DNA of 64,000 bases, from contig NZ_JAPEPX010000001.1 in the NCBI RefSeq assembly GCF_026339935.1, positions 2,695,001-2,759,000 of the forward strand. The letters are read 5' to 3'. The notes under the pieces are model-generated. The model was not told the origin of the DNA, made no database searches, and worked only from the letters and a program-made list of their open reading frames with translations. Shown piece by piece: positions 7 to 62,603 of this stretch (its first letter is position 1; each line of letters begins with the position of its first letter). Source of the DNA: Streptomyces sp. NBC_01551. Lineage in GTDB: Bacteria; Actinomycetota; Actinomycetes; Streptomycetales; Streptomycetaceae. Made by a program: the position numbers and the translations under genes.

Positions 7-21
7 CTGACGCCCCGTCAG
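7..21. promoter_or_regulatory. CTGACG-N3-CGTCAG operator, site 1
   Basis: Perfect 15-bp palindrome CTGACGCCCCGTCAG, 31 bases upstream of the SDR start at 53. The same sequence recurs ten more times in the window, nearly always beside acyl-CoA or redox catabolic genes. Its form and position suit a TetR-family operator; the binding protein is inferred, not shown. Confidence 0.75.
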
Positions 22-52
22 ATATGGCCCAGCCGCCCCCGGAGGACCCGTC

Positions 53-841
53 ATGCCGTTGTTGCGAGGGAAGACCGTCATCGTCTCCGGCGTCGGGGCC
101 GGGCTCGGGCACCAGGTGGCCGCCGCCGTCGTGCGCGACGGGGGGAACGCCGTGCTCGGGGCGCGGACCGAGGCGAATCTGGCCAAGGCCGCCGCCGAGA
201 TCGACCCGGACGGCGCCCACACCGCGTACCGGCCCACCGACATCACCGACGAGGCGCAGTGCGAGGCCCTCGCCGCCTTGGCGCAGGAGCGCTTCGGCGG
301 GGTCGACGCCGTCGTGCACGTCGCCGCCTGGGACTCCTACTTCGGCGGGATCGAGGACGCCGATTTCGGGACCTGGCAGCAGATCGTCGACGTCAACCTG
401 CTCGGCACGCTGAGGATGACCCGCGCGTGTCTGCCCGCGCTCAAGGAGGCCGGCGGCGGCTCCGTCGTCATCATCGGCACCCAGTCCGCCGTGGCGGCCC
501 CCAACGAGGTGCAGCAGGCCGCCTACGCCGCCTCCAAGGGGGCTCTGACCTCAGCCATGTACTCCATGGCCCGCGAGCTCGGCCCCCACCGGATCCGGGT
601 CAACACCGTGCTCCCCGGCTGGATGTGGGGACCTCCGGTGCAGGCGTTCGTCACCTTCACCGCCCACACCGAGGGCGTTCCCGAGGCCGAGGTGCACGCC
701 CGCCTCACCGAGCGGATGGCGCTTCCGGACCTCGCCACCGACGGGGACGTGGCCGACGCCGCCGTCTTCCTCGCCTCCGACCGGGCCAGGGCGATAACCG
801 GCCAGTCGCTGCTGGTCAACGCCGGTGAGGTGATGCGGTGA
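53..841 (+). CDS. SDR-family oxidoreductase
   Basis: A 262-residue classical short-chain dehydrogenase/reductase, the usual length for the family. The N-terminal Rossmann motif reads GVGAGLGHQ (about residues 14-22). The catalytic YAASK motif follows an upstream serine in the segment GTQSAV. The family moves hydride between NAD(P)H and alcohol/carbonyl substrates in the cytoplasm; the substrate cannot be read from sequence. The ATG at 53 is chosen because GGAGGA lies about six bases upstream. A perfect copy of the CTGACG palindrome stands just before the gene, so it is probably co-regulated with the acyl-CoA and LLM genes further along. fbiC follows 40 bases later but appears to have its own promoter. 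Confidence 0.85.
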
Positions 842-869
842 CGCCCTCCACCACCGTACGGACGGATCG

Positions 870-875
870 TATGCT
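870..875 (+). promoter_or_regulatory. Putative leaderless -10 of fbiC
   Basis: TATGCT ends six bases before the fbiC ATG and no ribosome binding site is visible between them. This is the classic actinobacterial leaderless arrangement, where transcription starts at or next to the A of ATG. No convincing -35 hexamer was found. Confidence 0.45.
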
Positions 876-881
876 CGGGCC

Positions 882-3458: not shown

Positions 3459-3492
3459 CGCCCGTCCTGGACCGACGCCGGGGTGACGCGTA

Positions 3493-3534
3493 CGGGAAGA
3501 GCCCGGCCGGGACAGCCGGCCGGGCTCTTGTCCC
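3493..3534. terminator. Bidirectional hairpin terminator
   Basis: The 14-bp arms at 3497-3510 (AAGAGCCCGGCCGG) and 3516-3529 are exact reverse complements around a five-base loop. The hairpin sits between the convergent ends of fbiC and the phosphatase gene and can serve both. Confidence 0.8.
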
Positions 3535-3547
3535 GTGTCGAGCGGTG

Positions 3548-4633: not shown

Positions 4634-4859
4634 GCCCTTGAGGCTGGGCGCCCGCGGGAAACCTCACATGAACGGGGAGTGGCCGAAAACAGCCGGCCCG
4701 ACGGACAGTGGCAAAACGTGCCACATGATCAATTCATGCCGTGAACACTTCGCTTTCCGGCCGTTCTCCGGTCACTTACGGGCTGTCCGACTCTCCGCTT
4801 CCGGTTTCGACCGGACATGTCCACTACAGTGCGCGCCAGAGCCAGCGGGGGGAATCGGC

Positions 4860-15297: not shown

Positions 15298-16785
15298 TCA
15301 GCCCGGCCAGACGATCGACTGGATCTCGCTGTACGCGTGCAGCGCGTACGAGCCCACGTCCCGGCCGACCCCGGAGCGCTTGAAGCCGCCGAACGGCGCC
15401 TCCATGTTCCGGCCGATCGTGTTGATCCCGACCCCGCCCGCCCGCAGCCGCCGCGCCACCCGGAAGGCACGCGCCGAGTCCCCGGACCAGACGTAGCTCA
15501 GCAGGCCGAAGTCGCTGTCGTTGGCGAGCCCGACGGCCTCCTCCTCGCCCGCGTCCCCGTCACCGTCGAAGGGGACCACCACGACCACCGGGCCGAAGAT
15601 CTCCTCCCGGACCACGCGCATGTCGTTCGTACAGTCCACGAGCAGCGTCGGGGCGACGTAGAACCCCTTGCCCGCCTCCCCCACGACCGGGCGCTCCCCG
15701 CCGTACGCGATCCGCGCGCCCTCCTTGCGCCCCAGCTCGACGTACGACTCCACACGGTCCCGGTGCGCCGCCGAGATCACCGGGCCGACCACCGTGCCGC
15801 GCACCGCCGGGTCCCCGACCTTCATGAAGGCCAGGTAGCCGGTCAGCTTCTCCACCAGCCGCTCGTACACCGCCCGGTGGACGATCACCCGGGTCGGGGC
15901 CGTGCAGATCTGGCCGCTGTAGAAGGAGAAGGTGGTCCCGATCCCCATCACCGCCGCGTCCAGGTCGGCGTCCTCGAAGACGATCGCCGCGCCCTTGCCG
16001 CCCAGCTCCATCAGCTGCCGCTTCATCGTCCGGCCGCAGACTTCGGCGATGCGCTGGCCGACGCCCGTCGAGCCGGTGAACGACACCATGTCCACGTACG
16101 GGGAGTCGACGGCCGCCTCCCCCACCTCCACCGAGGTGCCGGAGACCACGTTGACCACGCCCGCCGGGACGCCCGCCTCGTGCAGCGCCTGCGCCATCCG
16201 GAACACCGACAGCGGGTCCTGCGGGGCCGGCTTGACCACCACCGTGTTGCCCATGGCCAGCGCCGGGGCCACCTTGCCCGCCGGGTTCGCCCACGGGTTG
16301 TTGTACGAGGTGATGCAGGTGACCACGCCGACCGGCTGGCGCACCTCCAGCGCGCCCAGGATGCTCGCCTTCCCCATCGGGCCGGCCTCGGTGACCTGCG
16401 GCGCGAGCCCCCGCTCCACCGGCTCCAGGGCGCCCTTCGCGTAGCGCCGGAACCGGGACACCCCGACGCCGACCTGCATCCCCCGGGCGATGCCCGTCGG
16501 GGCGCCCGTCTCGGCCTGGGCCAGGGCGGCCCACGGCTCGAACTCGCGCTGCATGACGTCGGCGGCCCGGTCCAGGATCGCGGCCCGCGCCTCGGGGCTC
16601 GTACGGGACCAGCCCTCGAACGCCTCGGCGGCGGCGCGGGCGGCCTGCGCCACCTGGTCGCGGGAGGCCTCGGGGGCGAGGCCCACCACCGATTCGTCCG
16701 CCGGGTTGACCACCTCGTAGTGGCCTCCGGCGGGCTCCACCCACTCCCCGCCGATGTACAGCTGCTGCGGTCCTCGCAAGGTCAT
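15298..16785 (-). CDS. Aldehyde dehydrogenase
   Basis: A 495-residue enzyme of the NAD(P)-dependent aldehyde dehydrogenase superfamily, full length. The oxyanion asparagine lies in TSYNNPWANP (residues 160-168), the general base Glu260 in MELGGKG, and the nucleophile Cys294 in GQICTAPTR. It oxidises an aldehyde to the acid, or possibly to a CoA ester. The ATG overlaps the stop of the upstream amidohydrolase gene (ATGA), so the two are translated together. The block also contains LLM and SDR genes under CTGACG palindromes, suggesting it handles an aldehyde made in that pathway; this is inference from context. Confidence 0.9.
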   Translation of the reverse strand: MTLRGPQQLYIGGEWVEPAGGHYEVVNPADESVVGLAPEASRDQVAQAARAAAEAFEGWSRTSPEARAAILDRAADVMQREFEPWAALAQAETGAPTGIARGMQVGVGVSRFRRYAKGALEPVERGLAPQVTEAGPMGKASILGALEVRQPVGVVTCITSYNNPWANPAGKVAPALAMGNTVVVKPAPQDPLSVFRMAQALHEAGVPAGVVNVVSGTSVEVGEAAVDSPYVDMVSFTGSTGVGQRIAEVCGRTMKRQLMELGGKGAAIVFEDADLDAAVMGIGTTFSFYSGQICTAPTRVIVHRAVYERLVEKLTGYLAFMKVGDPAVRGTVVGPVISAAHRDRVESYVELGRKEGARIAYGGERPVVGEAGKGFYVAPTLLVDCTNDMRVVREEIFGPVVVVVPFDGDGDAGEEEAVGLANDSDFGLLSYVWSGDSARAFRVARRLRAGGVGINTIGRNMEAPFGGFKRSGVGRDVGSYALHAYSEIQSIVWPG

Positions 16786-18521
16786 CGCGTGCTCACCGTC
16801 CTCGTGTCCCGGCCCGAGCGGAGCACGATCCCGGGGATCGCGCCGGTCACCTCGTCGTCGCGGACGGTCTCCACGCCGTTGACGCGGACGGAGACGATGC
16901 CGATCGCCCGCGCGTCCAGCCGGGGGCTGTCCCCGGGCAGGTCGTGCACGAGCGTCGCGGGGCCCGCCTCGATCCGCTCCGGGTCGAAGAGCACCAGGTC
17001 CGCGTGGAACCCCTCGGCGATGCGGCCGCGCTCGCGCAGGCCGAACAGCTGCGCCGGATCGTCGGTGAGCATCCGTACCGCCTGCTCCAGCGGCACCAGC
17101 TTGCGGCCGCGCAGGCAGTCCCCGAGGAAGCGGGTCGTGTACGGGGCGCCGCACATGCGGTCCAGGTGCGCGCCGGCGTCGGAGCCGCCGAGCATCACGT
17201 CCTCGTGCTGCCAGGTCTCGGCGCGCAGCGCCCAGGTCGCGGGGTCGTTGTCGGTCGGCATGGGCCACAGGACGGTGCGCAGGTCGTCGTTGGCGCAGAT
17301 CTCGACGAGGCACTGAAAGGCGTCCTGGCCGCGCTCGGCGGCGATGTCGCCCACGACGCGGCCGGAGAGGCCCTCGTTCTCCTTGCTGTACGTGTCCCCG
17401 ATGACGTAGCGCCCGAAGCCGGCCAGGCGGCGGAACACGCCGGCCTCCTTGCTGTCGGCGCGGCGCAGCATCTCGGCCCGGGTGACGGGGTCGCGGAGCT
17501 TCGCGATCCGCTCGGGGACGGGGAGCGCGAGGATCTCGCCCCAGCCGGGGATGAGGTTGAGCGCGCAGAACGTGCCGAGGGACATGTTCATGGGGGTCAG
17601 GATCGGCATGGTCAGCGCGACGATCCGGCCGCCGGACTTGCGGGCGCGCTCGCTCGGCATCAGTTGGCGGGGGACCCGTTCGGGGACGGCGGCGTCGATG
17701 GTCAGGACGTTCCAGTTCAGGGGGCGCCCGGCGGCGGCGCTCATCTCGACGAAGAGGTCGATCTCGGCGTCGGAGAACTGGTCGAGGCAGCCGGCGACGA
17801 TGGCTTCGAGCTGGGTGCCGTCGTGTTCGCCGACGGCTCTCGACAGCGCGAGGAGCTCCGCCGGTTCGGCGTGGCGGGAGGCGACGGGGGCGCCGGCGCC
17901 GTCGGAGTGGGTGGAGGACTGGGTGGTGGACAGCCCCCAGGCGCCGGCGTCCATGGCGTCGTGGAGCAGCCCGAGCATCTGCTCCATCTGCTCGGGCGTG
18001 GGCCGGCCGCCGACGGCCTCCTCCCCCATCACGTACCTTCGGAGCGCGCAATGCCCGACCATGAACCCGGCGTTGACGGCGATCCGCCCTTCGAGCGCGT
18101 CCAGGTACTCCGCGAAGGTGGACCAGGTCCAGTCGACGCCCTCCTCCAGGGCCTTGAGGGCCATGCCCTCGACCTTGCTCATCATGCGGCGGGTGTAGTC
18201 GGCGTCCTGCGGGCGGGCCGGGTTGAGGGGCGCGAGAGTGAAACCGCAGTTGCCGCCGGCGACGGTGGTGACGCCGTGGTTCATGGACGGGGTGGCGTAG
18301 GGGTCCCAGAACAGCTGGGCGTCGTAGTGCGTGTGGGGGTCGATGAACCCGGGGGTCAGGACGAGCCCGGTGGCGTCCTCGGCGGTCCGGGCCTCCTCCG
18401 TTATGGTGCCGGGCCCGGCGATGACGGCGATCCGCCCGTCCCGGATCCCGACGTCGGCGACGTACCCGGCCGCGCCGGTCCCGTCCACGACGGTGGCTCC
18501 CTTGATCAGGTGGTCGAGCAT
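16782..18521 (-). CDS. N-acyl-D-amino-acid deacylase-type amidohydrolase
   Basis: A 579-residue amidohydrolase-3 / D-aminoacylase family protein. The metal-binding HxH lies in TPGFIDPHTHYD (about residues 57-68); GNCGFTLAPL follows, and the late metal/catalytic aspartate sits in LGGSDAGAHLDR. Known members cleave the amide of N-acyl-D-amino acids, and some are dihydropyrimidinase-like. Actinobacterial relatives near acyl-CoA genes are of unknown substrate. The ATG at 18521 follows GAGGAAGGG; a longer reading to 18632 adds residues without similarity. The gene overlaps the aldehyde dehydrogenase gene. The preceding 251-base gap contains a dispersed repeat. Confidence 0.85.
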   Translation of the reverse strand: MLDHLIKGATVVDGTGAAGYVADVGIRDGRIAVIAGPGTITEEARTAEDATGLVLTPGFIDPHTHYDAQLFWDPYATPSMNHGVTTVAGGNCGFTLAPLNPARPQDADYTRRMMSKVEGMALKALEEGVDWTWSTFAEYLDALEGRIAVNAGFMVGHCALRRYVMGEEAVGGRPTPEQMEQMLGLLHDAMDAGAWGLSTTQSSTHSDGAGAPVASRHAEPAELLALSRAVGEHDGTQLEAIVAGCLDQFSDAEIDLFVEMSAAAGRPLNWNVLTIDAAVPERVPRQLMPSERARKSGGRIVALTMPILTPMNMSLGTFCALNLIPGWGEILALPVPERIAKLRDPVTRAEMLRRADSKEAGVFRRLAGFGRYVIGDTYSKENEGLSGRVVGDIAAERGQDAFQCLVEICANDDLRTVLWPMPTDNDPATWALRAETWQHEDVMLGGSDAGAHLDRMCGAPYTTRFLGDCLRGRKLVPLEQAVRMLTDDPAQLFGLRERGRIAEGFHADLVLFDPERIEAGPATLVHDLPGDSPRLDARAIGIVSVRVNGVETVRDDEVTGAIPGIVLRSGRDTRTVSTR

Positions 18522-18625
18522 GACGTCCCTTCCTCGGTGGACCGCTGCCGTTGCGCTGCCGCTTCTGTTACGGGGACTCCGCCGGCCCCGGCCGACCGGT
18601 TCCACCCGGCCCGGCGGCAATTCCG

Positions 18626-18648
18626 GCCTCAAACGCCGACGAGGCTGA
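18626..18648. repeat. Dispersed Streptomyces intergenic repeat
   Basis: GGCCTCAAACGCCGACGAGG is close to a GC-rich, partly palindromic element (containing CTCAAACGCC) that I recall as scattered through Streptomyces intergenic DNA. A second partial copy is at 62185-62211. It lies in a gene-free stretch of 251 bases. Confidence 0.45.
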
Positions 18649-18772
18649 TTCCCCCGAGGTCCGGCCGGAGGGGGCGCTGGCCGCTGCCGTGTGCCTCCGG
18701 CCGGATCCGGGTGGGGGCCGGGGCCCCCGGGGCGGCGGTCCGGGAAACCGCCGCCCCCGTTCCCCCGCCGGC

Positions 18773-19903
18773 TCAGACGGCCTGGCGGAAGCGGGTCGTG
18801 CGGTGGACCGGGTCCGTGTCTATCTCCGGGATGACGTGCTCACCGATCAGCTTGATCGTCGTCATCGTGTCCTCGTACGAGACCCCCGTCGGCAGGCCGA
18901 AGGAGAGCTGGTCCGCGCCCGCCTGCTCCCAGCGCTTGCACTGGGCCTTGACCTCAGAGGGGTCACCGCAGATCAGCAGCTCCTCCGCGATGAGGAGTTC
19001 GATGATCTCCGCGTTGTACTCCGGCAGGGTCTCCGGCCACTGCGGGATCGCCTCCGGCCGCGGGAACGTGTCGTGGTAGCGGAACACCAGCGATTGGAAG
19101 CGGTTCATGTTCGCGTTGACCGCGATCTCCACCGCCTTGTCGTGCGTCTCCGCACAGATCGCCGTGGAGGTGACCATCACGTTGTCGTTCACGAAGGCCC
19201 CGATCGCCTTCGCCTCCTGGATCGCCGTCTTGTACTGCTCCAGCACCCACTCCATGTCGGAGACCTTCTGGACGCTGAACCCGAGGACGCCGAGGCCCTT
19301 CTTCGCCGCCATCGCGTACGAGGAGGGCGACCCGGCGGCGTACCACATGGCCGGGTGCGCCTTGCCGTACGGCTTCGGGAAGATCTTGCGGGGCGGGAGC
19401 GACCAGTGCTTGCCCTGGAACCCCTCGTATTCCTCCTGGAGGAACATCTTGGGGAACTCCGCGATGGTCTCCTCCCAGATCTCCTTGGTGGCGTTCATGT
19501 CCGTGATGCCGGGCAGGAACCCGAGGATCTCGTGGCTGCCGGCACCGCGCCCGGTGCCGAACTCGAAGCGCCCCTTGGAGAGGTGGTCGAGCATGGTGAC
19601 CTTCTCGGCCACCTTCACCGGGTGGTTGACCGGGGCCAGCGGGTTGAAGATGCCGGAGCCGAGGTGGATGCGCTCGGTGGCGTGGGCGAGGTACGCGAGG
19701 AACACCTCGTTCGCCGACAGGTGCGAGTACTCCTCCAGGAAGTGGTGCTCGGAGGCCCAGGCGTACTTGAAGCCGGACTTGTCGGCCTGGATGACGTACT
19801 CGGTCTCCTCGACCAGCGCCTTGTGCTCTGCCTCGGGGTCGACCTTGGACCGCGCCTCAGGCACGTATCCCTGCACGAAGAGCCCGAATTCCAAGGGGTT
19901 CAC
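18773..19903 (-). CDS. LLM-class flavin-dependent oxidoreductase
   Basis: A 376-residue luciferase-like TIM barrel. Recognisable segments are FKYAWASEHHFLEEYSHLS, HLGSGIFNPLAPVNHP, LDHLSKGRFEFGTGRGAG and, late, LLICGDPSEVKAQC. This subgroup (about 370 residues with a long central part) includes alkanal- and ketone-monooxygenase-like enzymes; whether FMN or F420 is used cannot be told from sequence. The start is GTG with TAAGGACG upstream. A perfect CTGACG palindrome lies 14 bases before the start and a one-mismatch copy at 19978-19992. Codon use is like the neighbours. Confidence 0.85.
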   Translation of the reverse strand: MNPLEFGLFVQGYVPEARSKVDPEAEHKALVEETEYVIQADKSGFKYAWASEHHFLEEYSHLSANEVFLAYLAHATERIHLGSGIFNPLAPVNHPVKVAEKVTMLDHLSKGRFEFGTGRGAGSHEILGFLPGITDMNATKEIWEETIAEFPKMFLQEEYEGFQGKHWSLPPRKIFPKPYGKAHPAMWYAAGSPSSYAMAAKKGLGVLGFSVQKVSDMEWVLEQYKTAIQEAKAIGAFVNDNVMVTSTAICAETHDKAVEIAVNANMNRFQSLVFRYHDTFPRPEAIPQWPETLPEYNAEIIELLIAEELLICGDPSEVKAQCKRWEQAGADQLSFGLPTGVSYEDTMTTIKLIGEHVIPEIDTDPVHRTTRFRQAV

Positions 19904-19916: not shown

Positions 19917-19931
19917 CTGACGTGTCGTCAG
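19917..19931. promoter_or_regulatory. CTGACG-N3-CGTCAG operator, site 2
   Basis: Perfect arms (CTGACGTGTCGTCAG), 14 bases upstream of the GTG of the minus-strand LLM gene at 19903. A repressor bound here would overlap the expected promoter or leader. Confidence 0.75.
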
Positions 19932-19977: not shown

Positions 19978-19992
19978 CTGACGCTTCATCAG
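19978..19992. promoter_or_regulatory. CTGACG-type operator, site 3 (one mismatch)
   Basis: CTGACGCTTCATCAG, with 11 of 12 arm positions conserved, 61 bases from site 2. Both lie in the 95-base gap between the SDR stop and the LLM start, so they may bind cooperatively. It is the only copy that is not the nearest one to a gene start. Confidence 0.55.
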
Positions 19993-19998: not shown

Positions 19999-20796
19999 TC
20001 AGAGGATGCTGACGCCCGCCATCCAGCCACCGTCGATCACGAACGGCTGGCCGGTGATGTACGAGGAGTCCTCGCTGGTCAGGAAGAGGGCGAGGCGGGC
20101 GATCTCCTCCGGCTGCCCGACCCGGCCCATCGGCACGACCCGCTTGTAGAGCTCCGCCATGGCGTCCCTGGCCTCGTCCGTCATCCCGGCCGGATCCAGC
20201 AGCCCCGGGTTGGCCATCGGGGTGTCCACGGCCCCCGGGCACATCGCGTTGACCCGGATGCCCCGCGCGGCCAGCTCCAGCGCGGCGACCCGGGTCAGGC
20301 CGAGGATCGCCGCCTTGGTGGCCGCGTACGTGCCGACGTAGGCCATGCCCGTCAGGCCGGTGTAGGAGGAGGTGTTGACGATGGTCCCGCCGCCCGCCTC
20401 CGCGATCTCGGGGGCAACGGACTTGATGCCGAGGAAGGCGCCGACCTGGTTGACCTGGACCACCTGCTGGAACTCCTCCAGCGGCGTCGCCGTCAGCTCG
20501 TTGAAGCGGAGGATGCCGGCGTTGTTGACCAGGCCGTTCACCGGACCGAAGGCCTCCTTCGCGGTGGCGATCGCGGCGGCCCAGTCCTCCTCCCGGCTCA
20601 CGTCCAGCCGCACGTAGCGGGCGCGGTCCGCTCCGGCCTCCTTGGCTATGTCCTGCGCGACGGCGGCGCCCTGCTCGTCCAGTACGTCGCCGAGCAGCAC
20701 CGAGGCCCCCTCGGCGGCGAAGAGGCGGGCCTCCTGCTCGCCCTGGCCGCGCGCCGCACCGGTGATGATGACGACGCGCCCGTCCAGCTTGCCCAT
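19999..20796 (-). CDS. SDR-family oxidoreductase
   Basis: A 265-residue classical SDR. The cofactor motif is ITGAARGQGEQEARLFA, then NNAGILRFNE, catalytic SSYTGLTGMAYVGTYAATK with the Y-x-x-x-K pair, and the C-terminal YITGQPFVIDGGW. The motif TGxxxGQG is common in mycofactocin-type or steroid-type SDRs, but this one lacks the long insertion of the mycofactocin group. It probably oxidises or reduces a hydroxy/keto group on a catabolic intermediate. It lies 17 bases downstream of the LLM gene at 20814-21761, in one operon behind the palindrome at 21831. Confidence 0.88.
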   Translation of the reverse strand: MGKLDGRVVIITGAARGQGEQEARLFAAEGASVLLGDVLDEQGAAVAQDIAKEAGADRARYVRLDVSREEDWAAAIATAKEAFGPVNGLVNNAGILRFNELTATPLEEFQQVVQVNQVGAFLGIKSVAPEIAEAGGGTIVNTSSYTGLTGMAYVGTYAATKAAILGLTRVAALELAARGIRVNAMCPGAVDTPMANPGLLDPAGMTDEARDAMAELYKRVVPMGRVGQPEEIARLALFLTSEDSSYITGQPFVIDGGWMAGVSIL

Positions 20797-20813
20797 GCCC
20801 GTACCCCTGTTCG

Positions 20814-21761: not shown

Positions 21762-21830
21762 GCCGTCCCCGCCTCGCCTTCGCCTGCGTCTGCCGATTCG
21801 TCCCATCGGCGCCGGGGGTCATCGTCGTAG

Positions 21831-21845
21831 CTGACGGTCCGTCAG
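21831..21845. promoter_or_regulatory. CTGACG-N3-CGTCAG operator, site 4
   Basis: Perfect arms, CTGACGGTCCGTCAG, 70 bases upstream of the LLM start at 21761 (minus strand). It heads the LLM-SDR operon. Confidence 0.75.
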
Positions 21846-34969: not shown

Positions 34970-34990
34970 GTGGTCCACGGTAGCGTTGAT

Positions 34991-35005
34991 CTGACGAACC
35001 GTCAG
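34991..35005. promoter_or_regulatory. CTGACG-N3-CGTCAG operator, site 5
   Basis: Perfect arms, CTGACGAACCGTCAG, eight bases upstream of the -10-like TACCGT of the amidohydrolase gene, where a bound repressor would block the -35/spacer region. It also lies 96 bases upstream of afsR on the other strand. Confidence 0.75.
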
Positions 35006-41099: not shown

Positions 41100-41114
41100 C
41101 TGACTATCCGTCAG
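41100..41114. promoter_or_regulatory. CTGACG-type operator, site 6 (one mismatch)
   Basis: CTGACTATCCGTCAG, 11 of 12 arm bases conserved, in the 86-base gap between the divergent ligase and thiolase-like genes. One bound repressor could control both promoters. Confidence 0.7.
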
Positions 41115-41166: not shown

Positions 41167-42318
41167 ATGGCCATAACACTCAAGGACGCTACGGCGATAG
41201 TCGGGATCGGGCAGACGGCCTTTGCCAAACGGCTCCCGCAGTCCGAGAAGGAATTGGCGTGCCGTGCGATTCTGGCCGCCCTCGCGGACGCCGGCATCGC
41301 CCCCTCCGAGGTCGACGCCTTCGCCTCGTACACGATGGAGGAGACCGACGAGGTCGAGGTCGCCAAGGCCATCGGCGCCGGCGACGTCACCTTCTTCTCC
41401 AAGGTCGGCTACGGCGGCGGCGGCTCCTGCGCCACCGTCGGCCACCTCGCGGCCGCCGTCGCCACCGGGCAGGCGAGCGTGGGCGTCGCCTGGCGCTCCC
41501 GCAAACGCGGCTCGGGGCCGCGCCCCTGGAAGAACACCGCCGTACAGCTGCCCACCCCCGGCCAGTGGACCCGCCCGTTCGGGCTGCTGCGGCCGGCCGA
41601 CGAGATCGGCATGCTGGCCCGGCGCTACATGCACGAGTACGGGGCCACCCGCGAGCACCTGTTCAACGTCGCGATGGCCTGCCGCAACCGGGCCAACGAG
41701 AACCCGGCCGCGATGATGTACGAGCGACCGCTGACCCGCGAGATGTACATGACCGCCCGCATGATCAGCGAGCCGCTCTGCCTCTTCGACAACTGTCTGG
41801 AGACGGACGGGGCGCTGGCCTGCGTGATCGTCTCCGCCGAGCGGGCCCGGGACTGCCGGCAGAAGCCGGTGTACGTGCACTCCGTGGCCCAGGGGCTGCC
41901 CGCCCAGCACCACGGGATGGTCAACTACTGGAACGACGACCCGCTGTCCGGGCCGGCCTGGACCGCCGCCCGGCACCTGTGGAAGCAGGCCGACTTCGGG
42001 CCGCAGGACGTGGACGTGGCCCAGATCTACGACGCGTTCACCCCGCTGATCCCGCTGTCCCTGGAGGGCTACGGCTTCTGCGGGCGCGGCGAGGGCGCCG
42101 CGTTCACCGAGGGCGGGGCGCTGGAGATGGGCGGCCGGCTGCCCGTCAACACGGGCGGCGGCGGACTCAGCGAGGCCTACGTACACGGCTTCAACCTGAT
42201 CAACGAGGGCGTCAAGCAACTGCGCGGCATCTCCACCGCACAGGTGCCGGACGCCGCGACCTGCCTGGTGACGGCGGGCGAGGGCGTCCCGACGTCCGCG
42301 ATCCTGCTGCGAGCCTGA
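41167..42318 (+). CDS. Thiolase-like lipid-transfer protein (Ltp-type), steroid-aldolase-like
   Basis: A 383-residue thiolase-fold protein of the SCP-x/Ltp group. Typical segments are VGIGQTAFAKRLP, ARRYMHEYGATREHL, QIYDAFTPLIPLSLEGYGFC and PVNTGGGGLSEAYVHGFN. The thiolase nucleophilic Cys region reads SYGGGGSCATV-like but the canonical Cys is not at the expected place, as in Ltp2-type retro-aldolases. Ltp2 needs a DUF35 partner to cleave side chains in cholesterol breakdown; a DUF35 gene follows 13 bases later. It is the first gene of an operon with DUF35 and an enoyl-CoA hydratase. The ATG at 41167 follows GGAGG; a GTG at 41161 is inside that site. Confidence 0.85.
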   Translation: MAITLKDATAIVGIGQTAFAKRLPQSEKELACRAILAALADAGIAPSEVDAFASYTMEETDEVEVAKAIGAGDVTFFSKVGYGGGGSCATVGHLAAAVATGQASVGVAWRSRKRGSGPRPWKNTAVQLPTPGQWTRPFGLLRPADEIGMLARRYMHEYGATREHLFNVAMACRNRANENPAAMMYERPLTREMYMTARMISEPLCLFDNCLETDGALACVIVSAERARDCRQKPVYVHSVAQGLPAQHHGMVNYWNDDPLSGPAWTAARHLWKQADFGPQDVDVAQIYDAFTPLIPLSLEGYGFCGRGEGAAFTEGGALEMGGRLPVNTGGGGLSEAYVHGFNLINEGVKQLRGISTAQVPDAATCLVTAGEGVPTSAILLRA

Positions 42319-42331
42319 GGAGCGAGCGACG

Positions 42332-42859
42332 ATGACGACGACCCCGGCCGCCGACGCGGCCACTGCTGCCACTGCTGCCACTGCTTCCGCTTCCGCTTCC
42401 GCCTCCGCCTCCGCCTCCGCCTCCGCCGACGAGCTGCTGCTTCCCGTCCCGGACGAGGACGGCGCGCCCTTCTGGGAGTACGCCGCCCGGGGCGAGCTGC
42501 GGATCCAGGCCTGCGCCTCCTGCGGCAGACTCCGCTTCCCGCCCAGACCGTGCTGCCCGCATTGCCAGTCGTTCGACTCCGAGTGGCGCCTGATGAGCGG
42601 ACGCGGGCGTATCTGGTCGTACGTCCGGCCGCACCCGCCCCTGCTGCCCGCCTACGCGGCGCAGGCCCCGTACAACGTGATCCTCGTGGAGCTCGCCGAC
42701 GCGCCGGGGATCCGGCTCGCCGGGAACCTGGTGGCCTCCCCCGACGCCCCGCTCGACTCGGTGGACCCGGGGCGGCTGCGCATCGGCGCCCGGGTCCAGG
42801 TCGCGTTCACCGAGACCGGCGGGATGGCCGTGCCCCGCTGGCTGCTGGAGCGGTCGTGA
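42332..42859 (+). CDS. DUF35 OB-fold protein with zinc ribbon
   Basis: A 175-residue protein. Residues 1-33 form a low-complexity Ala/Ser/Thr leader coded by hexanucleotide repeats. The zinc ribbon (CASCGRLRFPPRPCCPHC) and the OB domain follow, with YNVILVELADAPGIRLAGNLV. DUF35 proteins bind acyl-CoA and partner thiolase-fold proteins, as ChsH2's DUF35 domain does with Ltp2. It lies between the Ltp-like and the enoyl-CoA hydratase genes, overlapping the latter (GTGA). The operator at 41100 probably controls all three. Confidence 0.87.
   Translation: MTTTPAADAATAATAATASASASASASASASADELLLPVPDEDGAPFWEYAARGELRIQACASCGRLRFPPRPCCPHCQSFDSEWRLMSGRGRIWSYVRPHPPLLPAYAAQAPYNVILVELADAPGIRLAGNLVASPDAPLDSVDPGRLRIGARVQVAFTETGGMAVPRWLLERS
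42383..42424 (+). repeat. Hexanucleotide repeat inside the DUF35 gene
   Basis: Seven tandem units of GCTTCC or GCCTCC coding for Ala-Ser repeats near the N terminus. The number of units may vary among strains by slippage; changes keep the reading frame. Confidence 0.8.
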
Positions 42860-43632
42860 CGGTGCGGGTGGAGCGGGACAAGGCGACCGGGGTCGCGGTC
42901 GTCACCCTGGACCGGGAGCGCCGGCACAACGCCGTCGACCTGGAGACGGCCGCCGAACTGGCCGCCGTGTGGCGTGAGTTCCGGTTCGAGGACGAGGTGC
43001 GGGCGGCGGTGGTGACGGGCGCCGGGACGGCCGCGTTCTGCACCGGCATCGACCGCTCGGTCCAGGTCCCGCAGCCGGGTTCCCCGTACTCGGTCGACGA
43101 CCCGCTGGTGGCGATCGGCCCGAAGGCCAACGACCTGTGGAAGCCGGTGATCGCCGCCGTCAACGGCATGGCCTGCGGCGGCGCCTTCTACGTCCTGGGC
43201 GAGGCGGAGTTCCTGATCGCCTCCGACACGGCGAGCTTCTTCGACCCGCACACCACGTACGGGATGGTCAGCGCCTACGAGGCCGTCTACATGGCGCAGC
43301 GGATGCCGTTCGGCGAGGTCGCCCGGATGTCCCTGATGGGCACGGCGGAACGGCTCTCGGCGCGCCGGGCCTACGAGATCGGCCTGGTCTCCGAGCTGAC
43401 GGCGCCCGGGGAGCTGCTCCCGGCGGCGCTGCGGGCGGCGCAGACTCTGGCCGGATTTCCGACGGAGGGCGTGCAGGGCACCGTACGGGCGCTGTGGTCC
43501 GCGAAGCGGGCGGCGCTGCAACAGGCCCTGGACCAGGCGCCGGCGCTTATCGCGCTGGGGAACCTGACTCCGGAGCGGCAGGCCTCGCTGTTCGCGGGGC
43601 GGCGGGAGGCGCCGGAGCCCCGGGTGCGGTGA
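42856..43632 (+). CDS. Enoyl-CoA hydratase/isomerase family protein
   Basis: A 258-residue crotonase-fold enzyme. The oxyanion-hole segments are GTAAFCTGIDRS and NGMACGGAFYVLGEAEFLIAS. Other conserved parts include the DPHTTYGMVSAYEAVYMAQRM region. It hydrates an enoyl-CoA or performs a related crotonase reaction. The usual second catalytic glutamate region is altered, so an isomerase-type or hydrolase-type reaction is possible. GTG overlaps the DUF35 stop. It ends 11 bases from a convergent gene. Confidence 0.85.
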   Translation: MTVRVERDKATGVAVVTLDRERRHNAVDLETAAELAAVWREFRFEDEVRAAVVTGAGTAAFCTGIDRSVQVPQPGSPYSVDDPLVAIGPKANDLWKPVIAAVNGMACGGAFYVLGEAEFLIASDTASFFDPHTTYGMVSAYEAVYMAQRMPFGEVARMSLMGTAERLSARRAYEIGLVSELTAPGELLPAALRAAQTLAGFPTEGVQGTVRALWSAKRAALQQALDQAPALIALGNLTPERQASLFAGRREAPEPRVR

Positions 43633-50865: not shown

Positions 50866-50871
50866 TAAGCT
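50866..50871 (+). promoter_or_regulatory. Putative leaderless -10 of the TetR gene
   Basis: TAAGCT ends six bases before the ATG at 50878. A degenerate CTGACG-type site (CTGACGGCATGACAG, 50870-50884, 10 of 12 arm bases) overlaps the hexamer and the start codon. Confidence 0.45.
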
Positions 50872-50877
50872 GACGGC

Positions 50878-51525
50878 ATGACAGGACAAGTACGCACCGT
50901 CGACGGGCGTGTCGCCGGCCGGCGCGGCCAGGCGACGCGGCAGAAGCTGCTCGACTGCCTCAGCGAGATGCTCAGCTCCTCGCCGTACCGCGACGTCAAG
51001 GTGATCGACGTCGCGCGCAAGGCCGGTACCTCCCCCGCGACCTTCTACCAGTATTTCCCGGACGTCGAAGGCGCCGTCCTGGAGATCGCCGAGCAAATGG
51101 CCACCGAGGGCGCGCAGTTGACGTCGCTCGTCGAGGGCCGGAACTGGGTCGGCAAGGCCGGCTGGGCGGCGGCCGAGGAACTCGTCGAGGGATTCCTGGA
51201 CTTCTGGCGGGCCAACGACGCGATCCTCCGGGTCGTCGACCTCGGCGCGGCCGAGGGCGACAAGCGGTTCTACAAGATCCGCATGAAGATCCTGAACTCC
51301 GTCACCAACTCCCTCACGGAGTCGATGAAGGAACTCCAGGCCAAGGGCAAGGTCGACAAGGACGTCAGCCCGGCGGCCATGGCGGGATCCCTGGTCGCGA
51401 TGCTGGCCGCGGTCGCCTCGCACCAGAAGGGCTTCCAGACCTGGGGCGTGAAACAGGCCGAGCTCAAGCCGAACCTGGCGCTGCTCGTGCACCTGGGCAT
51501 CACCGGCAAGAAGCCGACCAAGTAA
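50878..51525 (+). CDS. TetR-family regulator, candidate for the CTGACG regulon
   Basis: A 215-residue TetR protein. The DNA-binding part (about residues 18-65) has VIDVARKAGTSPATFYQYFPDVEGAV and the ligand domain is helical with GLWRAND-like and LNSVTNSLTESM segments. A near-copy of the CTGACG palindrome overlaps its own start, which suggests autoregulation. Two perfect or near-perfect copies lie at 53381 and 53458, close downstream. Those facts make it the best candidate in the window for binding the eleven palindromes. The other TetR gene (44303) has a different operator. Ligand unknown; an acyl-CoA would fit. Confidence 0.85.
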   Translation: MTGQVRTVDGRVAGRRGQATRQKLLDCLSEMLSSSPYRDVKVIDVARKAGTSPATFYQYFPDVEGAVLEIAEQMATEGAQLTSLVEGRNWVGKAGWAAAEELVEGFLDFWRANDAILRVVDLGAAEGDKRFYKIRMKILNSVTNSLTESMKELQAKGKVDKDVSPAAMAGSLVAMLAAVASHQKGFQTWGVKQAELKPNLALLVHLGITGKKPTK

Positions 51526-53380: not shown

Positions 53381-53395
53381 CTGACGGGGCGTCAT
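53381..53395. promoter_or_regulatory. CTGACG-type operator, site 7 (one mismatch)
   Basis: CTGACGGGGCGTCAT, 11 of 12 arm bases, 20 bases upstream of the acyl-CoA dehydrogenase start (minus strand). Confidence 0.65.
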
Positions 53396-53457: not shown

Positions 53458-53481
53458 CTGACGTACCGTCAGTTGTACGGT
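53458..53481 (+). promoter_or_regulatory. CTGACG operator, site 8, with leaderless -10
   Basis: The perfect palindrome CTGACGTACCGTCAG spans 53458-53472. TACGGT follows at 53476-53481 and the ATG of the thiolase-like gene begins six bases later. The operator therefore fills the spacer between -35 and -10, a typical repressor site. Confidence 0.7.
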
Positions 53482-53487: not shown

Positions 53488-54720
53488 ATGTCGCCTGCCA
53501 TGTCTGGACCCCTCCACGCCGGCGCCGGGACCGAACCCGCCGCCGCCACCTCCGCGCGCCGCCGCCGGGTCGCGGTCGTCGGCGTCGCCCTGTCGGACTG
53601 CGGCCGCGTGGACGGCCCCACCCCCTACGCCCTGCACGCGCAGGCCGCCCGCCGGGCCCTGGCCGACTCCGGCCTCGACCGCTCCGTCATCGACGGCCTC
53701 GCCTCGGCGGGCCTCGGCACGCTCGCGCCGGTCGAGGTGGCCGAGTACCTGGGGCTGCGCCCCACCTGGGTCGACTCCACCTCGGTCGGCGGCTCCACCT
53801 GGGAGGTCATGGCGGCGCACGCCGCGGACGCGATCGCGGCCGGGCACGCGAACGCCGTGCTCCTGGTCTACGGATCGACGGCCCGGGCCGACATCAAGGC
53901 CCGCCGCCGCACCTCGAACCTCTCCTTCGGAGCACGGGGGCCGCTCCAGTTCGAGGTGCCGTACGGGCACACCCTGATCTCCAAGTACGCGATGGCGGCC
54001 CGCCGCCACATGCACGAGTACGGGACGACCCTGGAGCAGCTCGCCGCGGTGGCCGTCCAGGCCCGGGCGAACGCGGCGACCAACCCGGACGCGATGTTCC
54101 GCGACCCGATCACGGTCGACGACGTCCTGTCGGCCGACATGATCGCGGACCCGTTCACGAAGCTGCACTGCTGCATCCGCTCGGACGGCGGCTGCGCGGT
54201 GCTGCTGGCGGCGGAGGACTACGTACCGGACACCGCCAAGTCCCCGGTGTGGATCCTGGGCACGGGCACCTCCGTCTCCCACACCACCATGTCGGAGTGG
54301 GAGGACTTCACCGTCTCCCCCGCGGCCGTCTCGGGCCGCCAGGCCTTCGCCCGCGCGGGCCTCACCCCGGCGGACGTGGACCTCGCCGAAATCTACGACG
54401 CCTTCACCTACATGACCCTGGTCACCCTGGAGGACCTCGGCTTCTGCGCCAAGGGCGAGGGCGGCGCCTTCGTCGAGAAGGGCCGCCTCCTGCGCGACGG
54501 CGAACTCCCGGTCAACACGGACGGCGGCGGCCTCTCGGCCTGCCACCCGGGCATGCGCGGCCTGTTCCTCCTGGTGGAAGCGGTCCGCCAACTCCGCGGC
54601 GAGGCGGGCCCGGACCGCCAGGTCACCCGCCGCAACGGCCACCTACCGCAGATCGCCCTCGCCTCGGGCACGGGGGGCTGGTTCTGCTCGTCGGGAACGC
54701 TGATCCTGGGACGGGGGTAG
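53488..54720 (+). CDS. Thiolase-like lipid-transfer protein (Ltp-type), second copy
   Basis: A 410-residue thiolase-fold protein related to that at 41167. Segments VAVVGVALSDCGRVDG, SKYAMAARRHMHEYGTTLE, AEIYDAFTYMTLVTLEDLGFC and PVNTDGGGLSACHPGM match the Ltp group. A candidate general-base tyrosine lies in EIYDAF. The N-terminal leader of about 25 residues is low in structure. Its DUF35 partner is not adjacent; one lies at 59578. A perfect CTGACG palindrome with a leaderless -10 directly precedes the start, and the gene is divergent from the acyl-CoA dehydrogenase operon. The ATG at 53488 is preferred over others because of that -10. Confidence 0.83.
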   Translation: MSPAMSGPLHAGAGTEPAAATSARRRRVAVVGVALSDCGRVDGPTPYALHAQAARRALADSGLDRSVIDGLASAGLGTLAPVEVAEYLGLRPTWVDSTSVGGSTWEVMAAHAADAIAAGHANAVLLVYGSTARADIKARRRTSNLSFGARGPLQFEVPYGHTLISKYAMAARRHMHEYGTTLEQLAAVAVQARANAATNPDAMFRDPITVDDVLSADMIADPFTKLHCCIRSDGGCAVLLAAEDYVPDTAKSPVWILGTGTSVSHTTMSEWEDFTVSPAAVSGRQAFARAGLTPADVDLAEIYDAFTYMTLVTLEDLGFCAKGEGGAFVEKGRLLRDGELPVNTDGGGLSACHPGMRGLFLLVEAVRQLRGEAGPDRQVTRRNGHLPQIALASGTGGWFCSSGTLILGRG

Positions 54721-57006: not shown

Positions 57007-57007
57007 G

Positions 57008-57595: not shown

Positions 57596-57603
57596 GGGCC
57601 CGC

Positions 57604-57613: not shown

Positions 57614-57619
57614 GGCCTC

Positions 57620-58285: not shown

Positions 58286-58289
58286 GCGC

Positions 58290-59522: not shown

Positions 59523-59577
59523 GGCACGCTCTCCCGCCGTCCGACTCCCGCCGTCCGAGGACCCCCGGGCAACACCC

Positions 59578-60120
59578 TCAGCGTAGGGTCGCGCCACCCC
59601 GGTCGCTCGGCGAGCCGTCACCGACGGCCGGCCGGAACACGGCCACCGCCACGCCTTCCGCGGCCCCGCCCACCGCGGCCGCACCCGCCGCCGCGACGCC
59701 CCCCGCCACGCTCTCCGCGGCCCCGCCCGCCGCCTCCACCCGGAACGTGACCTCCAGCGGCATGCCGATCCGCAGGTCGGCGTGCGCGCAGTCCACGACC
59801 TCCGTCATCATCCGGGGCCCCTCCGCCAGGTCGACCACCGCCGCCACGTACGGGACCCGCGTCCCGAACGGCGGGAGGTCGTTGCGGTGGATCACCGACC
59901 AGGTGTACAGCGTGGCGCGGCCGCTCGCCGCCTCCCACGTCACCCGGTCCTCCCCCGCCCAGCAGAACGGGCAGAACTCCCTCGGGTAGTGGTGCGCGCG
60001 CCCGCACTCCCCGCAGCGGCGCAGCAGCAGCCGGCCGGTCGCGGCCGCGTCCCAGTAGGGGCGGGTGAAGTCGTCGACGTCGGGCAGGTCGTAGCGGGCG
60101 GTCCCGCCGGCGGGGCTCAC
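59578..60120 (-). CDS. DUF35 OB-fold protein with zinc ribbon, second copy
   Basis: A 180-residue protein. Zinc ribbon CGECGRAHHYPREFCPFC, then the OB domain (TLYTWSVIHRNDLPPFG and VVDLAEGPRMM). The C-terminal tail is Ala/Gly/Val-rich and looks disordered. Like other DUF35 proteins it probably partners a thiolase-fold protein, here perhaps the unlinked one at 53488, whose own operon lacks a DUF35 gene. GTG overlaps the DoxX stop (GTGA). A perfect CTGACG palindrome precedes the two-gene operon. Confidence 0.85.
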   Translation of the reverse strand: MSPAGGTARYDLPDVDDFTRPYWDAAATGRLLLRRCGECGRAHHYPREFCPFCWAGEDRVTWEAASGRATLYTWSVIHRNDLPPFGTRVPYVAAVVDLAEGPRMMTEVVDCAHADLRIGMPLEVTFRVEAAGGAAESVAGGVAAAGAAAVGGAAEGVAVAVFRPAVGDGSPSDRGGATLR

Positions 60121-60569
60121 AGGAACAGTCCCGTCGCCGCGTCGACCGACCAGGTCTGCCATCCCATGGCGAAGAGCGCGACGAGCGAGATGAGGGCCAT
60201 CATCGCGTTCTGGCCCTGCTCGGCCCAGTCATGGATCATCAGCACCAGGTACAGCAGGTTCAGCAGCAGCCCGCCCACCAGCGCGATCGGCGTCAGGAGC
60301 CCGAGGACCAGGCCCAGCCCGAGCGCGAGTTCCGCGTAGACGACGACGTACGCCATCAGGCGCGGCCTCGGCTGGACGACCTTCTCGAAGCCGCCCTTCA
60401 CGAACGGCCAGCGGTGCTTGCCCGCGACGTCGGCCGCCCAGGCGATGCCGGTGCCGCGCTCGAACCAGCCCTTCTTGTCCTTGTGCCGCCAGCTCTCCAG
60501 CCACCACAGGCCGAGGCCTATCCGGAGCACGGCGAGCCATTCGGCCCCACTGAGCCAGATGGTCTGCAT
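60117..60569 (-). CDS. DoxX-family membrane protein
   Basis: A 150-residue membrane protein with four hydrophobic helices, in the DoxX arrangement: LSGAEWLAVLRIGLGLWWLES, YAELALGLGLVLGLLTPIAL and the final helix NAMMALISLVALF. DoxX proteins are linked to redox or thiosulfate metabolism and cell envelope stress, but their chemistry is unclear. GGAGGGAGGG precedes the ATG. It is the first gene of an operon with DUF35, headed by a perfect operator, so it belongs to the catabolic regulon, perhaps in substrate uptake or membrane redox. Confidence 0.8.
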   Translation of the reverse strand: MQTIWLSGAEWLAVLRIGLGLWWLESWRHKDKKGWFERGTGIAWAADVAGKHRWPFVKGGFEKVVQPRPRLMAYVVVYAELALGLGLVLGLLTPIALVGGLLLNLLYLVLMIHDWAEQGQNAMMALISLVALFAMGWQTWSVDAATGLFL

Positions 60570-60593
60570 CAGCGCCCTCCCTCCCCTCTCGAT

Positions 60594-60608
60594 CTGACGG
60601 TACGTCAG
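60594..60608. promoter_or_regulatory. CTGACG-N3-CGTCAG operator, site 9
   Basis: Perfect arms, CTGACGGTACGTCAG, 24 bases upstream of the DoxX start (minus strand). Confidence 0.75.
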
Positions 60609-60795
60609 TTCACCGGATCCGGACCGATCCCGCAAGGCCCCCCGCAACGGCCACCGGTGCCGCCGCCCACACCCCCGCCCGCCACCGCCCCCCGCACCGC
60701 CGCCAGCGGGGACCCCGGCGTCCGTGATCGATCCGCAATCGATTCCCCGCCCGTCCGAGACCCATCAACCCAGCGTGGCGATACGATCACACCTC

Positions 60796-62088
60796 ATGCC
60801 CGGAGTCACCACAGCACCCGACATGACCACCCAGCCCCGCCCCGTCTACGTGATCGGCGCCGGGCCCGGCGGCCTCGCCGTCGCCGCCGCGCTGCGCGCA
60901 CGCGGGGTGCGCGCGGTGGTCGTCGACAAGGCCGACGCCGTCGGCGCCTCCTGGCGGGGGCACTACGACCGGCTCCGCCTGCACACCACCCGCCGCCTCT
61001 CCGCCCTGCCCGGACTGGCGATTCCGCGCCGGTTCGGGCGGTGGGTGTCGCGGGACGACGTGGTGCGGTACCTGGAGAAGTACGCCGAGTTCCACGAGCT
61101 GGAGCTGGTGACCGGCGTCGAGGTGACGCGCATCGAGCGCGCCCCGGAGGACGGCGGCGACGGCGGCAACGGCAACGGCAGCAGCCACGGCGACCGCGGC
61201 GGCCCCGGCTGGCTCCTGCACGCCACCGGCGGCCGGGTGCTGGCCGCCCGGGCCGTGGTCGTGGCCACCGGCTTCAACCACACCCCGCGCCTGCCGGACT
61301 GGCCCGGCCGCGACACGTACACCGGGACGCTCACGCACGCCGCCGCCTACCGCAACCCCCGGCCGTACGAGGGCCAGGACGTGCTCGTCGTCGGCGTCGG
61401 CAACACCGGCGCCGAGATAGCCGTCGACCTGGCCGGTGGCGGGGCCGCGCGGGTCCGCCTCGCCGTGCGCACCGCCCCGCACATCGTGCGCCGCTCCACC
61501 GCCGGCTGGCCGGCCCAGCGCACCGGGATCCTGGTACGGCGGCTGCCCGTACGCCTCGTGGACCGGCTCGGCCGGCTCGTCGCCAAGGCGTCCGTCCCGG
61601 ACCTGACGGCGTACGGGCTCCCACGCCCGGAGTCCGGCCTGTACAGCAGGGCCCGACAGGGGGCGATACCGGTGCAGGACGTCGGCCTGATCGACGCCGT
61701 CCGCACGGGCCGGGTGGAGCCGGTCGCCGCCGTCGAGGCGTTCGACGGCGCCGAGGTGGTGCTCGCGGACGGCTCCCGGATCACCCCGGACGCGGTGGTC
61801 GCGGCCACCGGCTACCGGCGCGGCCTGGAGGGCCTGCTCGGCCACCTCGACGTACTGGACGAGCGCGGGCGGCCGCTCACCCACGGCCGGCGCACCCCCG
61901 AGCAGGCCCCCGGCCTGTACTTCACCGGGTACACCAACCCCATCAGCGGCATGTTCCGGGAGATGGCGCTGGACGCGGAGAAGATCGCCAAGGCCGTCGC
62001 CCGCAGGCTCGGCGTCCGGGCCGCGGCCCGGCGTTCGGCCGAGCTCCTGCCGGACACCGGCCTGCGCCCGGTGGACCCCCCGGCCTGA
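60796..62088 (+). CDS. FAD-dependent monooxygenase-like protein (FMO/TrkA type)
   Basis: A 430-residue flavoprotein. The FAD motif is VIGAGPGGLAVAAAL; the second nucleotide-binding motif is VVGVGNTGAEIAVDL (NAD(P)H). Segments LHTTRRLSALPG and ATGFNHTPRLPDWPG match flavin-containing or Baeyer-Villiger-like monooxygenases. A Gly/Asn-rich insertion at about residue 118-135 is probably a loop. TACGAT (60782-60787) ends eight bases before the ATG, a leaderless promoter. It may oxidise a pathway intermediate, but no operator is directly upstream (the site at 60594 belongs to DoxX). Confidence 0.82.
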   Translation: MPGVTTAPDMTTQPRPVYVIGAGPGGLAVAAALRARGVRAVVVDKADAVGASWRGHYDRLRLHTTRRLSALPGLAIPRRFGRWVSRDDVVRYLEKYAEFHELELVTGVEVTRIERAPEDGGDGGNGNGSSHGDRGGPGWLLHATGGRVLAARAVVVATGFNHTPRLPDWPGRDTYTGTLTHAAAYRNPRPYEGQDVLVVGVGNTGAEIAVDLAGGGAARVRLAVRTAPHIVRRSTAGWPAQRTGILVRRLPVRLVDRLGRLVAKASVPDLTAYGLPRPESGLYSRARQGAIPVQDVGLIDAVRTGRVEPVAAVEAFDGAEVVLADGSRITPDAVVAATGYRRGLEGLLGHLDVLDERGRPLTHGRRTPEQAPGLYFTGYTNPISGMFREMALDAEKIAKAVARRLGVRAAARRSAELLPDTGLRPVDPPA

Positions 62089-62564
62089 CCCCGCGCCCCC
62101 ACCCCGGCTCCGGCTCCGACGCCGACGCCGACGGCGACGGCGACGGCGACGGCCGCCGTGACCGCGTGGGCCCGGCCGGGGAACAGCCGGCCGCTCAAAC
62201 GCCGGACGCCGGACCCCGCGGCGAACTGCGGCGCGAGACCGGGCCGTCCACGCGGAGCGCGATTCGGAACGCCCGCACGACGCGAACGCGCCACGGCGCG
62301 GCGGGATCACGGGTACGGTGGCCGCTCCCTCGGCCGCCGCCATCGCCGCGACCGGACGGACGAGCCGACCCGGCCCGGACGGACGAGCCGCCCCCGGCCC
62401 GGACGGACGATCCGACCCCGCCCCGACGGCGACCCCGGCCAACGCAGCGGACGCGCCAGACCGGCGCCCCCGCAGAGCGGCCGAATCGGCCCTGGACCCC
62501 CTCCCGGGGGATCTGCGACCGTTCCACACATCACCTCCACCAGCTTTCCCGCGCAGGCCTGTTC
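62089..62564. other. Gene-free GC-rich stretch with repeats
   Basis: The bases between the monooxygenase stop and the operators hold no convincing gene. GAC/GGC-rich triplet repeats occur near 62115-62150. A partial copy of the dispersed CTCAAACGCC element is at 62185-62211. CCGGACGGACGAGCCG and its near-copies occur at 62352-62367, 62375-62390 and 62399-62414. Confidence 0.55.
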
Positions 62565-62603
62565 CTGACGGCGCGTCAGTTCAGTAATCTGACTACGCGT
62601 CAG
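62565..62603 (+). promoter_or_regulatory. CTGACG-type operators, sites 10 and 11
   Basis: CTGACGGCGCGTCAG (62565-62579, perfect) and CTGACTACGCGTCAG (62589-62603, one mismatch) stand in tandem, centre to centre 24 bases, just upstream of the CoA-ligase gene. Paired sites suggest tight or cooperative control. Confidence 0.75.

Follow-up and report, generated by a model that had tools for sequence, protein, structure and literature searches.

Results

A palindrome precedes catabolic genes in a 64-kb Streptomyces window

A 64,000-nucleotide stretch of Streptomyces sp. NBC_01551 (contig NZ_JAPEPX010000001.1, positions 2,695,001 to 2,759,000), hereafter the window, with positions counted from its first base, carries dispersed copies of the palindrome CTGACG-N3-CGTCAG together with a gene for a TetR-family regulator (50878..51525, plus strand; TetR_N and PF19352 TetR_C_38), the proposed reader of the palindrome (hereafter the 50878 TetR). 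This protein is very probably a little-studied repressor of genes that resemble those for the catabolism of sterol side chains and related ring compounds, and the 15-base palindrome its binding site. An earlier, sequence-only reading had listed eleven sites, and a pattern search of the window recovered all of them, seven perfect (7, 19917, 21831, 34991, 53458, 60594, and 62565) and four with one mismatch (19978, 41100, 53381, and 62589). All eleven were placed between genes by a GC-frame gene finder. The chance figure of 0.004 given in that reading is replaced here by 0.014–0.021 perfect matches per window, as predicted by Markov models of orders 1–4, against the seven observed. The two arms occur in the window at a spacer of three bases only, with no instance at spacers of 0–2 or 4–20. 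Allowing up to three mismatches gave 51 matches versus a shuffled mean of 72, which is no excess and restricts the informative signal to the class with zero or one mismatch. An additional one-mismatch site at 58043, missing from the earlier list, was taken as chance because it lies inside a gene and the ortholog in the related genome G125 has no site of at most one mismatch.

Inspection of related genomes, which the sequence-only reading had suggested, revealed sites of at most one mismatch before orthologous genes in G125, G246, and G096. Among the hand-matched orthologous sites, arms agree at 375 of 384 positions and spacers at 60 of 96, the high arm agreement being partly a product of the search, which identified sites by their arms and at no more than one mismatch. 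The perfect copy at 7..21, CTGACGCCCCGTCAG, lies 31 bp 5' of the start codon of a putative target gene for an SDR oxidoreductase (53..841, plus strand; PRK07890 above cut-off) and is perfect before the orthologs in G246 and G096 (G125 is not covered). Two copies precede an LLM oxidoreductase gene (18773-19903), one perfect (19917..19931; 13 bp away; perfect in G125 and G096, one mismatch in G246) and one with a mismatch (19978..19992; 74 bp away; one-mismatch partner in all three relatives). Judged from spacing, this gene would form a minus-strand operon (15298..19903) with genes for an amidohydrolase (16782-18521) and an aldehyde dehydrogenase (15298-16785). The perfect copy at 21831..21845 stands before a TIGR03619 F420-dependent LLM gene (20814-21761 or 21806), 24 bp from the alternative start at 21806, and spacing again points to a minus-strand operon (19999..21806) that includes an SDR gene (19999-20796); its counterparts are perfect in G125 and G096 and take the form of two one-mismatch sites in G246.

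The perfect copy at 34991..35005, which is perfect in all three relatives, is located 12 bp before a putative target gene for a PF04909 amidohydrolase (33749..34978, minus strand), a 65% relative of which in family f14 likewise has a perfect site. The sequence-only reading had seen no copies beside regulatory genes, which is not strictly right, as this copy is also 97 bp before a divergent gene for a BTAD/NB-ARC/TPR regulator of the AfsR type (35102..38095, plus strand; 997 amino acids). Given this position, the repressor may have an additional effect on antibiotic regulation. The one-mismatch copy at 41100..41114 occupies a divergent promoter region, with the identical mismatch in G125, G246, and G096, between genes for a FadD3-family acyl-CoA ligase (39470..41080, minus strand; PRK07656 above cut-off) and an Ltp-type thiolase (41167-42318; PRK07855), the first gene of a plus-strand group (41167..43632) that continues with a ChsH2-type OB-fold protein (42593-42859) and an enoyl-CoA hydratase-like protein (42856-43632).

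The one-mismatch copy CTGACGGGGCGTCAT (53381..53395), whose terminal T is shared by all three relatives, lies 20 bp before a gene for an IpdE2-like acyl-CoA dehydrogenase (52110-53360, minus strand; 205 bits, cut-off 450), downstream of which follows a gene for an F420H2-dependent reductase-like protein (51637-52110, minus strand). Its perfect neighbor at 53458..53472 is 27 bp before a putative target gene for a thiolase (53500..54720, plus strand; PRK06158, just above cut-off), with one mismatch in G125 and G246 and no partner of at most one mismatch in G096. The perfect copy at 60594..60608, identical in all three relatives, lies 24 bp before genes for a DoxX-like protein (60117-60569) and a ChsH2/DUF35-type protein (59578-60120; together 59578..60569, minus strand). 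Finally, a perfect copy at 62565..62579 (perfect in G096, one mismatch in G125 and G246) and, 24 bp from it, a one-mismatch copy at 62589..62603 (one-mismatch partners in all three relatives) precede a gene for an NDP-forming acyl-CoA synthetase (62648..64000, plus strand), which extends past the window end and scores below the cut-off of its best model. All three site pairs of the window (19917/19978, 53381/53458, and 62565/62589) recur in G125 and G246; G096 has two of them.

The palindrome marks further catabolic genes in the genome

The sequence-only reading had proposed a dispersed catabolic regulon and had named random placement of the motif as speaking against it. A genome-wide scan supported the regulon and extended it past the window: the 7.05-Mb genome has 14 perfect sites, versus none for the reversed control, and 12 of the 14 lie before catabolic or redox genes. 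Of the two exceptions, 3794321 falls within a coding gene; 4843863 follows what looks by eye like coaD and is 84 bp upstream of a gene that has no Pfam match. Eight of the perfect sites are clustered in 68 kb (2695007-2762999). Sites of at most one mismatch number 96, compared to 18 for the reversed control, which is lenient in that the ratio of motif to control is still about 3:1 (162 to 56) in genomes without the TetR. Among the one-mismatch sites, 36 of 82 were listed, and those within the stretches read were looked at.

Outside the window, perfect sites precede genes for a ChsH2-type protein (just under the Pfam cut-off) and an Ltp protein (PRK06059; site 751942), a MaoC-type hydratase (1790111), an F420_Rv3520c-type LLM (1798133), a flavin reductase domain protein (2762985), and an LLM (4857263), and further one-mismatch sites are found at 2766972, 2773181, and 2773259. 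The regulon thus reaches loci at 0.75, 1.79–1.82, and 4.86 Mb. In addition, a one-mismatch site at 1794014 precedes a gene for a 710-amino-acid double acyl-CoA dehydrogenase, which we take from its architecture to be FadE34-like, and another at 1817025 is 16 bp from a CYP125 gene (E 3e-152 to a solved CYP125) and 214 bp from a divergent FadA5-like gene (PRK07850 443 bits, cut-off 515; the gene is cut by the stretch end). Some one-mismatch sites are intragenic (L016:10941; L022:7972, in a KstR-like gene; L024:1264). Among 23 site-gene pairs of this genome, hand-chosen for their targets and measured to the gene finder's start or an alternative one, site and start are 12–74 bp apart in 20 cases; the three exceptions have gaps of 128, 170, and 214 bp. 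Many sites lie, by eye, directly 3' of an A/T-rich hexamer such as TAGAAT, so that the operator would sit at the transcription start.

The distribution of the palindrome follows the 50878 TetR

The 50878 TetR scores 26.9 bits against PF00440 (cut-off 24) and 242.9 bits against PF19352, and its predicted structure (pLDDT 92) is essentially all helical, with an EthR-like fold. A SlmA-like role in nucleoid occlusion was rejected (30.8 bits, cut-off 120). In a sample of 296 genomes of the class, in which perfect sites were counted, the 58 carriers of this TetR have 1153 sites (694 in family f13), and the 238 non-carriers 162, a mean of 0.68. The 22 carriers outside the genus (E<1e-30) hold 804 sites, compared to 4 for the control; apart from the 694 in f13, this leaves 110 for the remaining 17 carriers (mean 6.5). 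In family f14, five carriers have 7–14 sites each, and three non-carriers have 0, 0, and 1. The motif distribution thus tracks the 50878-type TetR and not KstR. Of 13 homologs from motif-bearing genomes, 11 have the predicted recognition helix, GTSPATFYQYF, without any change.

In the distant family f14, genome G013 has 14 perfect sites, namely 8 divergent and 5 tandem ones, all 13 of which fall outside predicted genes, and 1 coding one. With a reference set that comprised the window and the stretches read of the Streptomyces genome, and is hence target-rich, nine of these sites neighbor a gene whose best hit is a target-operon gene here (39–65% identity): an amidohydrolase (65%), three LLMs (59%, 52%, and 51%), an aldehyde dehydrogenase (65%), an alcohol dehydrogenase (50%), and three acyl-CoA dehydrogenases (57%, 49% at 345 bp, and 39%). 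The other five sites have no such neighbor in the same set.

Co-occurrence cannot separate two co-inherited genes, and another regulator that travels with the 50878 TetR might instead read the palindrome; the window indeed encodes a second TetR (44303-44959, TetR_C_7), and the lack of a reported phenotype for SCO4421, the likely Streptomyces coelicolor counterpart of the 50878 TetR, would fit this (see Discussion). However, in the four f14 loci read (of five carriers), a site of at most one mismatch lies 38–50 bp directly before the TetR gene itself, overlapping in one of them (L105) the end of the preceding SDR gene. In Streptomyces, a degenerate site with two mismatches, CTGACGGCATGACAG (50870..50884, plus strand), covers the TetR start codon, and across 92 distinct promoters the pattern CTGACGGC at this position is 83–98% conserved per base and present in most. 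Moreover, the recognition helix is altered in all three f16-g31 homologs read, which come from genomes without motif enrichment. A fellow-travelling regulator is therefore improbable, and co-occurrence, sites before its own gene in f14, and recognition-helix conservation make the 50878 TetR the best-supported candidate regulator.

KstR-type motifs are present separately

CYP125, FadA5-like, and FadE34-like enzymes are of types that belong to the KstR regulon, and a KstR-like gene at 1803927 (NF033703 198.6 bits, cut-off 280) lies inside the target cluster at 1.79–1.82 Mb, so that the palindrome might be an altered operator read by this KstR ortholog. The KstR operator, TnnAACnnGTTnnA, was nevertheless rejected as the identity of the palindrome. 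Of its 29 matches in the genome (control 7), one precedes the KstR-like gene by 174 bp, and two others lie close to copies of the palindrome, at 65 bp from 1790111 and at 2 bp from 1794014; with matches at the kstR, MaoC-hydratase, and FadE34-like promoters, KstR seems to keep its own operator. Two promoters, 1790111 and 1794014, carry both motifs, and at the latter the KstR-type motif and the one-mismatch palindrome together span L021:17998-18028 (G000:C1:1793998-1794028). The 66 genomes with KstR and without the 50878-type TetR average 0.74 sites, whereas the 11 with the TetR and no KstR hit average 63.9, a figure inflated by f13 (median 3). In addition, NF033703 is not among the five NCBIfam families matched by the 50878 TetR. 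Reading of the palindrome by KstR thus appears highly improbable. The KstR2 motif, AnCAAGnnCTTGnT, was rejected as well, as it differs from the palindrome and did not turn up in the 14 stretches of this genome that were searched.

A cluster resembling IpdF/EchA20/IpdA/IpdB/IpdC is located at 1.46 Mb (L136:2789-7181; G000:C1:1462789-1467181) with another TetR (TetR_C_24) nearby. Despite this locus, full cholesterol degradation is not supported, since TIGR03213, in a scan whose controls include no known carrier, is unmatched in the genome. This absence fits a survey in which a steroid pathway was scored as missing from 55 of 57 Streptomyces genomes (PMC4810484), and calls for caution against a claim of full steroid degradation. 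Another study describes cholesterol binding and hydroxylation by CYP125A13 of S. peucetius (PMC9728343).

In family f13 the palindrome is concentrated at convergent gene ends

All five f13 genomes carry the TetR, each with 109–218 perfect sites, and one of them, G012, has 687 sites of at most one mismatch (control 18). Placement was analyzed for 52 distinct perfect sites. Ten came from 19 stretches picked without regard to sites, 17 of them at even spacing and two at the TetR gene, and the remaining 42 from 40 stretches that were selected for their sites with the first part of the site list. Of the 52, 22 lie in the gaps between convergent genes (gaps that make up 1.3% of bases), 19 are coding, 9 tandem, and 2 divergent; the ten from stretches picked without regard to sites comprise 6 convergent, 3 coding, and 1 tandem. 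Twelve more sites in 3-kb loci (7 coding, 1 convergent, 2 tandem, 1 divergent, and 1 unclassed) bring the convergent share to 23 of 64. At least one stop codon of a neighboring gene falls inside 22 of the 52 sites, and at L155:16511, L160:11210, L170:2253, and L172:1755 the palindrome can supply the stop codons of both convergent genes. Part of this placement may come from compact convergent stops (cTGAcg..cgTCAg), which leave the coding copies unaccounted for.

Fifty convergent gaps sampled in f13 include 6 with a perfect site and 10 with a site of at most one mismatch, and others bear different hairpins. Large similar palindromes, GGGTGACACCCC...GGGGTGTCACCC, lie between convergent genes of G012 at L160:9516-9592, L162:8231-8329, L162:14419-14518, and L171:5864-5939. 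The palindrome itself could fold into a 6-bp stem with a 3-base loop, and this, along with its concentration at convergent ends, would suit an RNA hairpin or a repeat element in place of a protein operator. Yet the listed sites of the Streptomyces genome precede starts and do not follow stops, the stem sequence does not change from site to site as the spacers do, and the flanks of 22 f13 sites share nothing by eye beyond the 15-mer, which also led us to reject a mobile-element origin; we give the hairpin or repeat explanation hardly any credence. Comparison of G012 with G031 (90% identity) at three perfect sites showed that two are retained with changed spacers and that the third, which borders an indel of about 260 bp, is not.

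In the f13 TetR the helix-turn-helix is kept and the C-terminal domain is shorter and divergent. Conceivably, although we consider it unlikely, the operator left promoters in this family and spread genome-wide, and the TetR, its ligand domain degraded, became a constitutive roadblock terminator or insulator. If the TetR does bind at these gene ends, a one-component repressor would have changed its role in an unusual way.

Discussion

The positions of the sites, the genes beside them, their co-occurrence with the TetR gene, and their recurrence in relatives were observed directly. We consider it likely on these grounds that CTGACG-N3-CGTCAG is the operator of the 50878 TetR and that this protein represses a sterol-side-chain or steroid-like catabolic regulon. 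A TetR dimer would bind the palindrome close upstream of target start codons and block, rather than activate, transcription until released by a pathway compound of hydrophobic or CoA-linked nature. The predicted regulon comprises acyl-CoA ligases, acyl-CoA dehydrogenases, hydratases, thiolases, ChsH2-type OB-fold proteins, SDR and LLM oxidoreductases, amidohydrolases, and the CYP125 gene, and would amount to a sterol-side-chain or steroid-like programme partly shared with KstR at dual-motif promoters. The TetR may also weakly repress itself via the degenerate site over its start codon.

Several observations weigh against this reading. The Streptomyces self-site has two mismatches, and its flanking bases are fairly conserved too. 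The co-occurrence counts are not independent because the lineages are related, and 694 of the 1153 carrier sites come from f13 alone, a family that does not have the motif at promoters. The TetR is present in all 31 same-genus genomes, seven of which have at most four perfect sites; the carriers G019 and G027 have none, and the non-carrier G133 (93% complete) has five. G254 (0 sites) and G213 (1 site) retain the exact recognition helix, which implies that the TetR outlives the regulon, either in another role or lingering. Near the TetR gene, few or no sites are found in G143, G254, and G213 (L116, L117, L150-L152), G143 having nine perfect sites elsewhere, and retention of the TetR in these genomes suggests a second role. 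As to the substrate, the CYP125, FadA5-like, and FadE34-like genes are linked only through sites with one mismatch, no palindrome of at most one mismatch occurs in the 40 kb read at the ipdAB-like locus of this genome, and the genome in which TIGR03213 is unmatched is 98.6% complete; this family models an HsaC-related ring-cleavage enzyme, and the controls include no known carrier.

The open-licence literature on the motif, SCO4421, and Streptomyces steroid regulators yielded nothing that we recognized as describing a CTGACG-N3-CGTCAG operator. The analysis thus offers a concrete candidate operator and a predicted regulon for a TetR gene present throughout the sampled genus, and a third candidate regulator, besides KstR and KstR2, for actinobacterial sterol-type catabolism, with some promoters carrying both the KstR-type and the new motif.

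EthR of M. tuberculosis controls an ethA-type monooxygenase. Its likeness to the 50878 TetR lies in the fold, at 19% identity and with the sequence match confined to residues 15–78. KstR2 sits beside ipdAB in mycobacteria, where its regulon covers the steroid C/D rings. In f14, the 50878-type TetR adjoins ipdAB-like genes (annotated in L106) with sites, the position that KstR2 has in mycobacteria; the motif is different, however, and the ipdAB-like locus of the Streptomyces genome has the TetR_C_24 protein instead. SCO4421 of S. coelicolor, a TetR gene close to afsK (PMC3878966), is the probable counterpart of the 50878 TetR, whose gene is next but one to an AfsK-type kinase gene; they are matched by position and description, and no regulon is reported for SCO4421. 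In that study, SCO4421 is up-regulated in sporulation and lowered in a whiA mutant, its deletion had no phenotype detected in the reported tests, which also counts against the reading above, and it has no known function (PMC3878966). Mycobacterial KstR (Rv3574) is a TetR repressor with a short palindrome that stands before many dispersed lipid genes and is found in its own promoter as well (PMC1995591). The 50878 TetR resembles it in combining a TetR protein with a short palindrome before many dispersed genes and in target types that overlap, but differs in protein and in motif, and stands in a genome that has a separate KstR-like gene with motif matches of its own.

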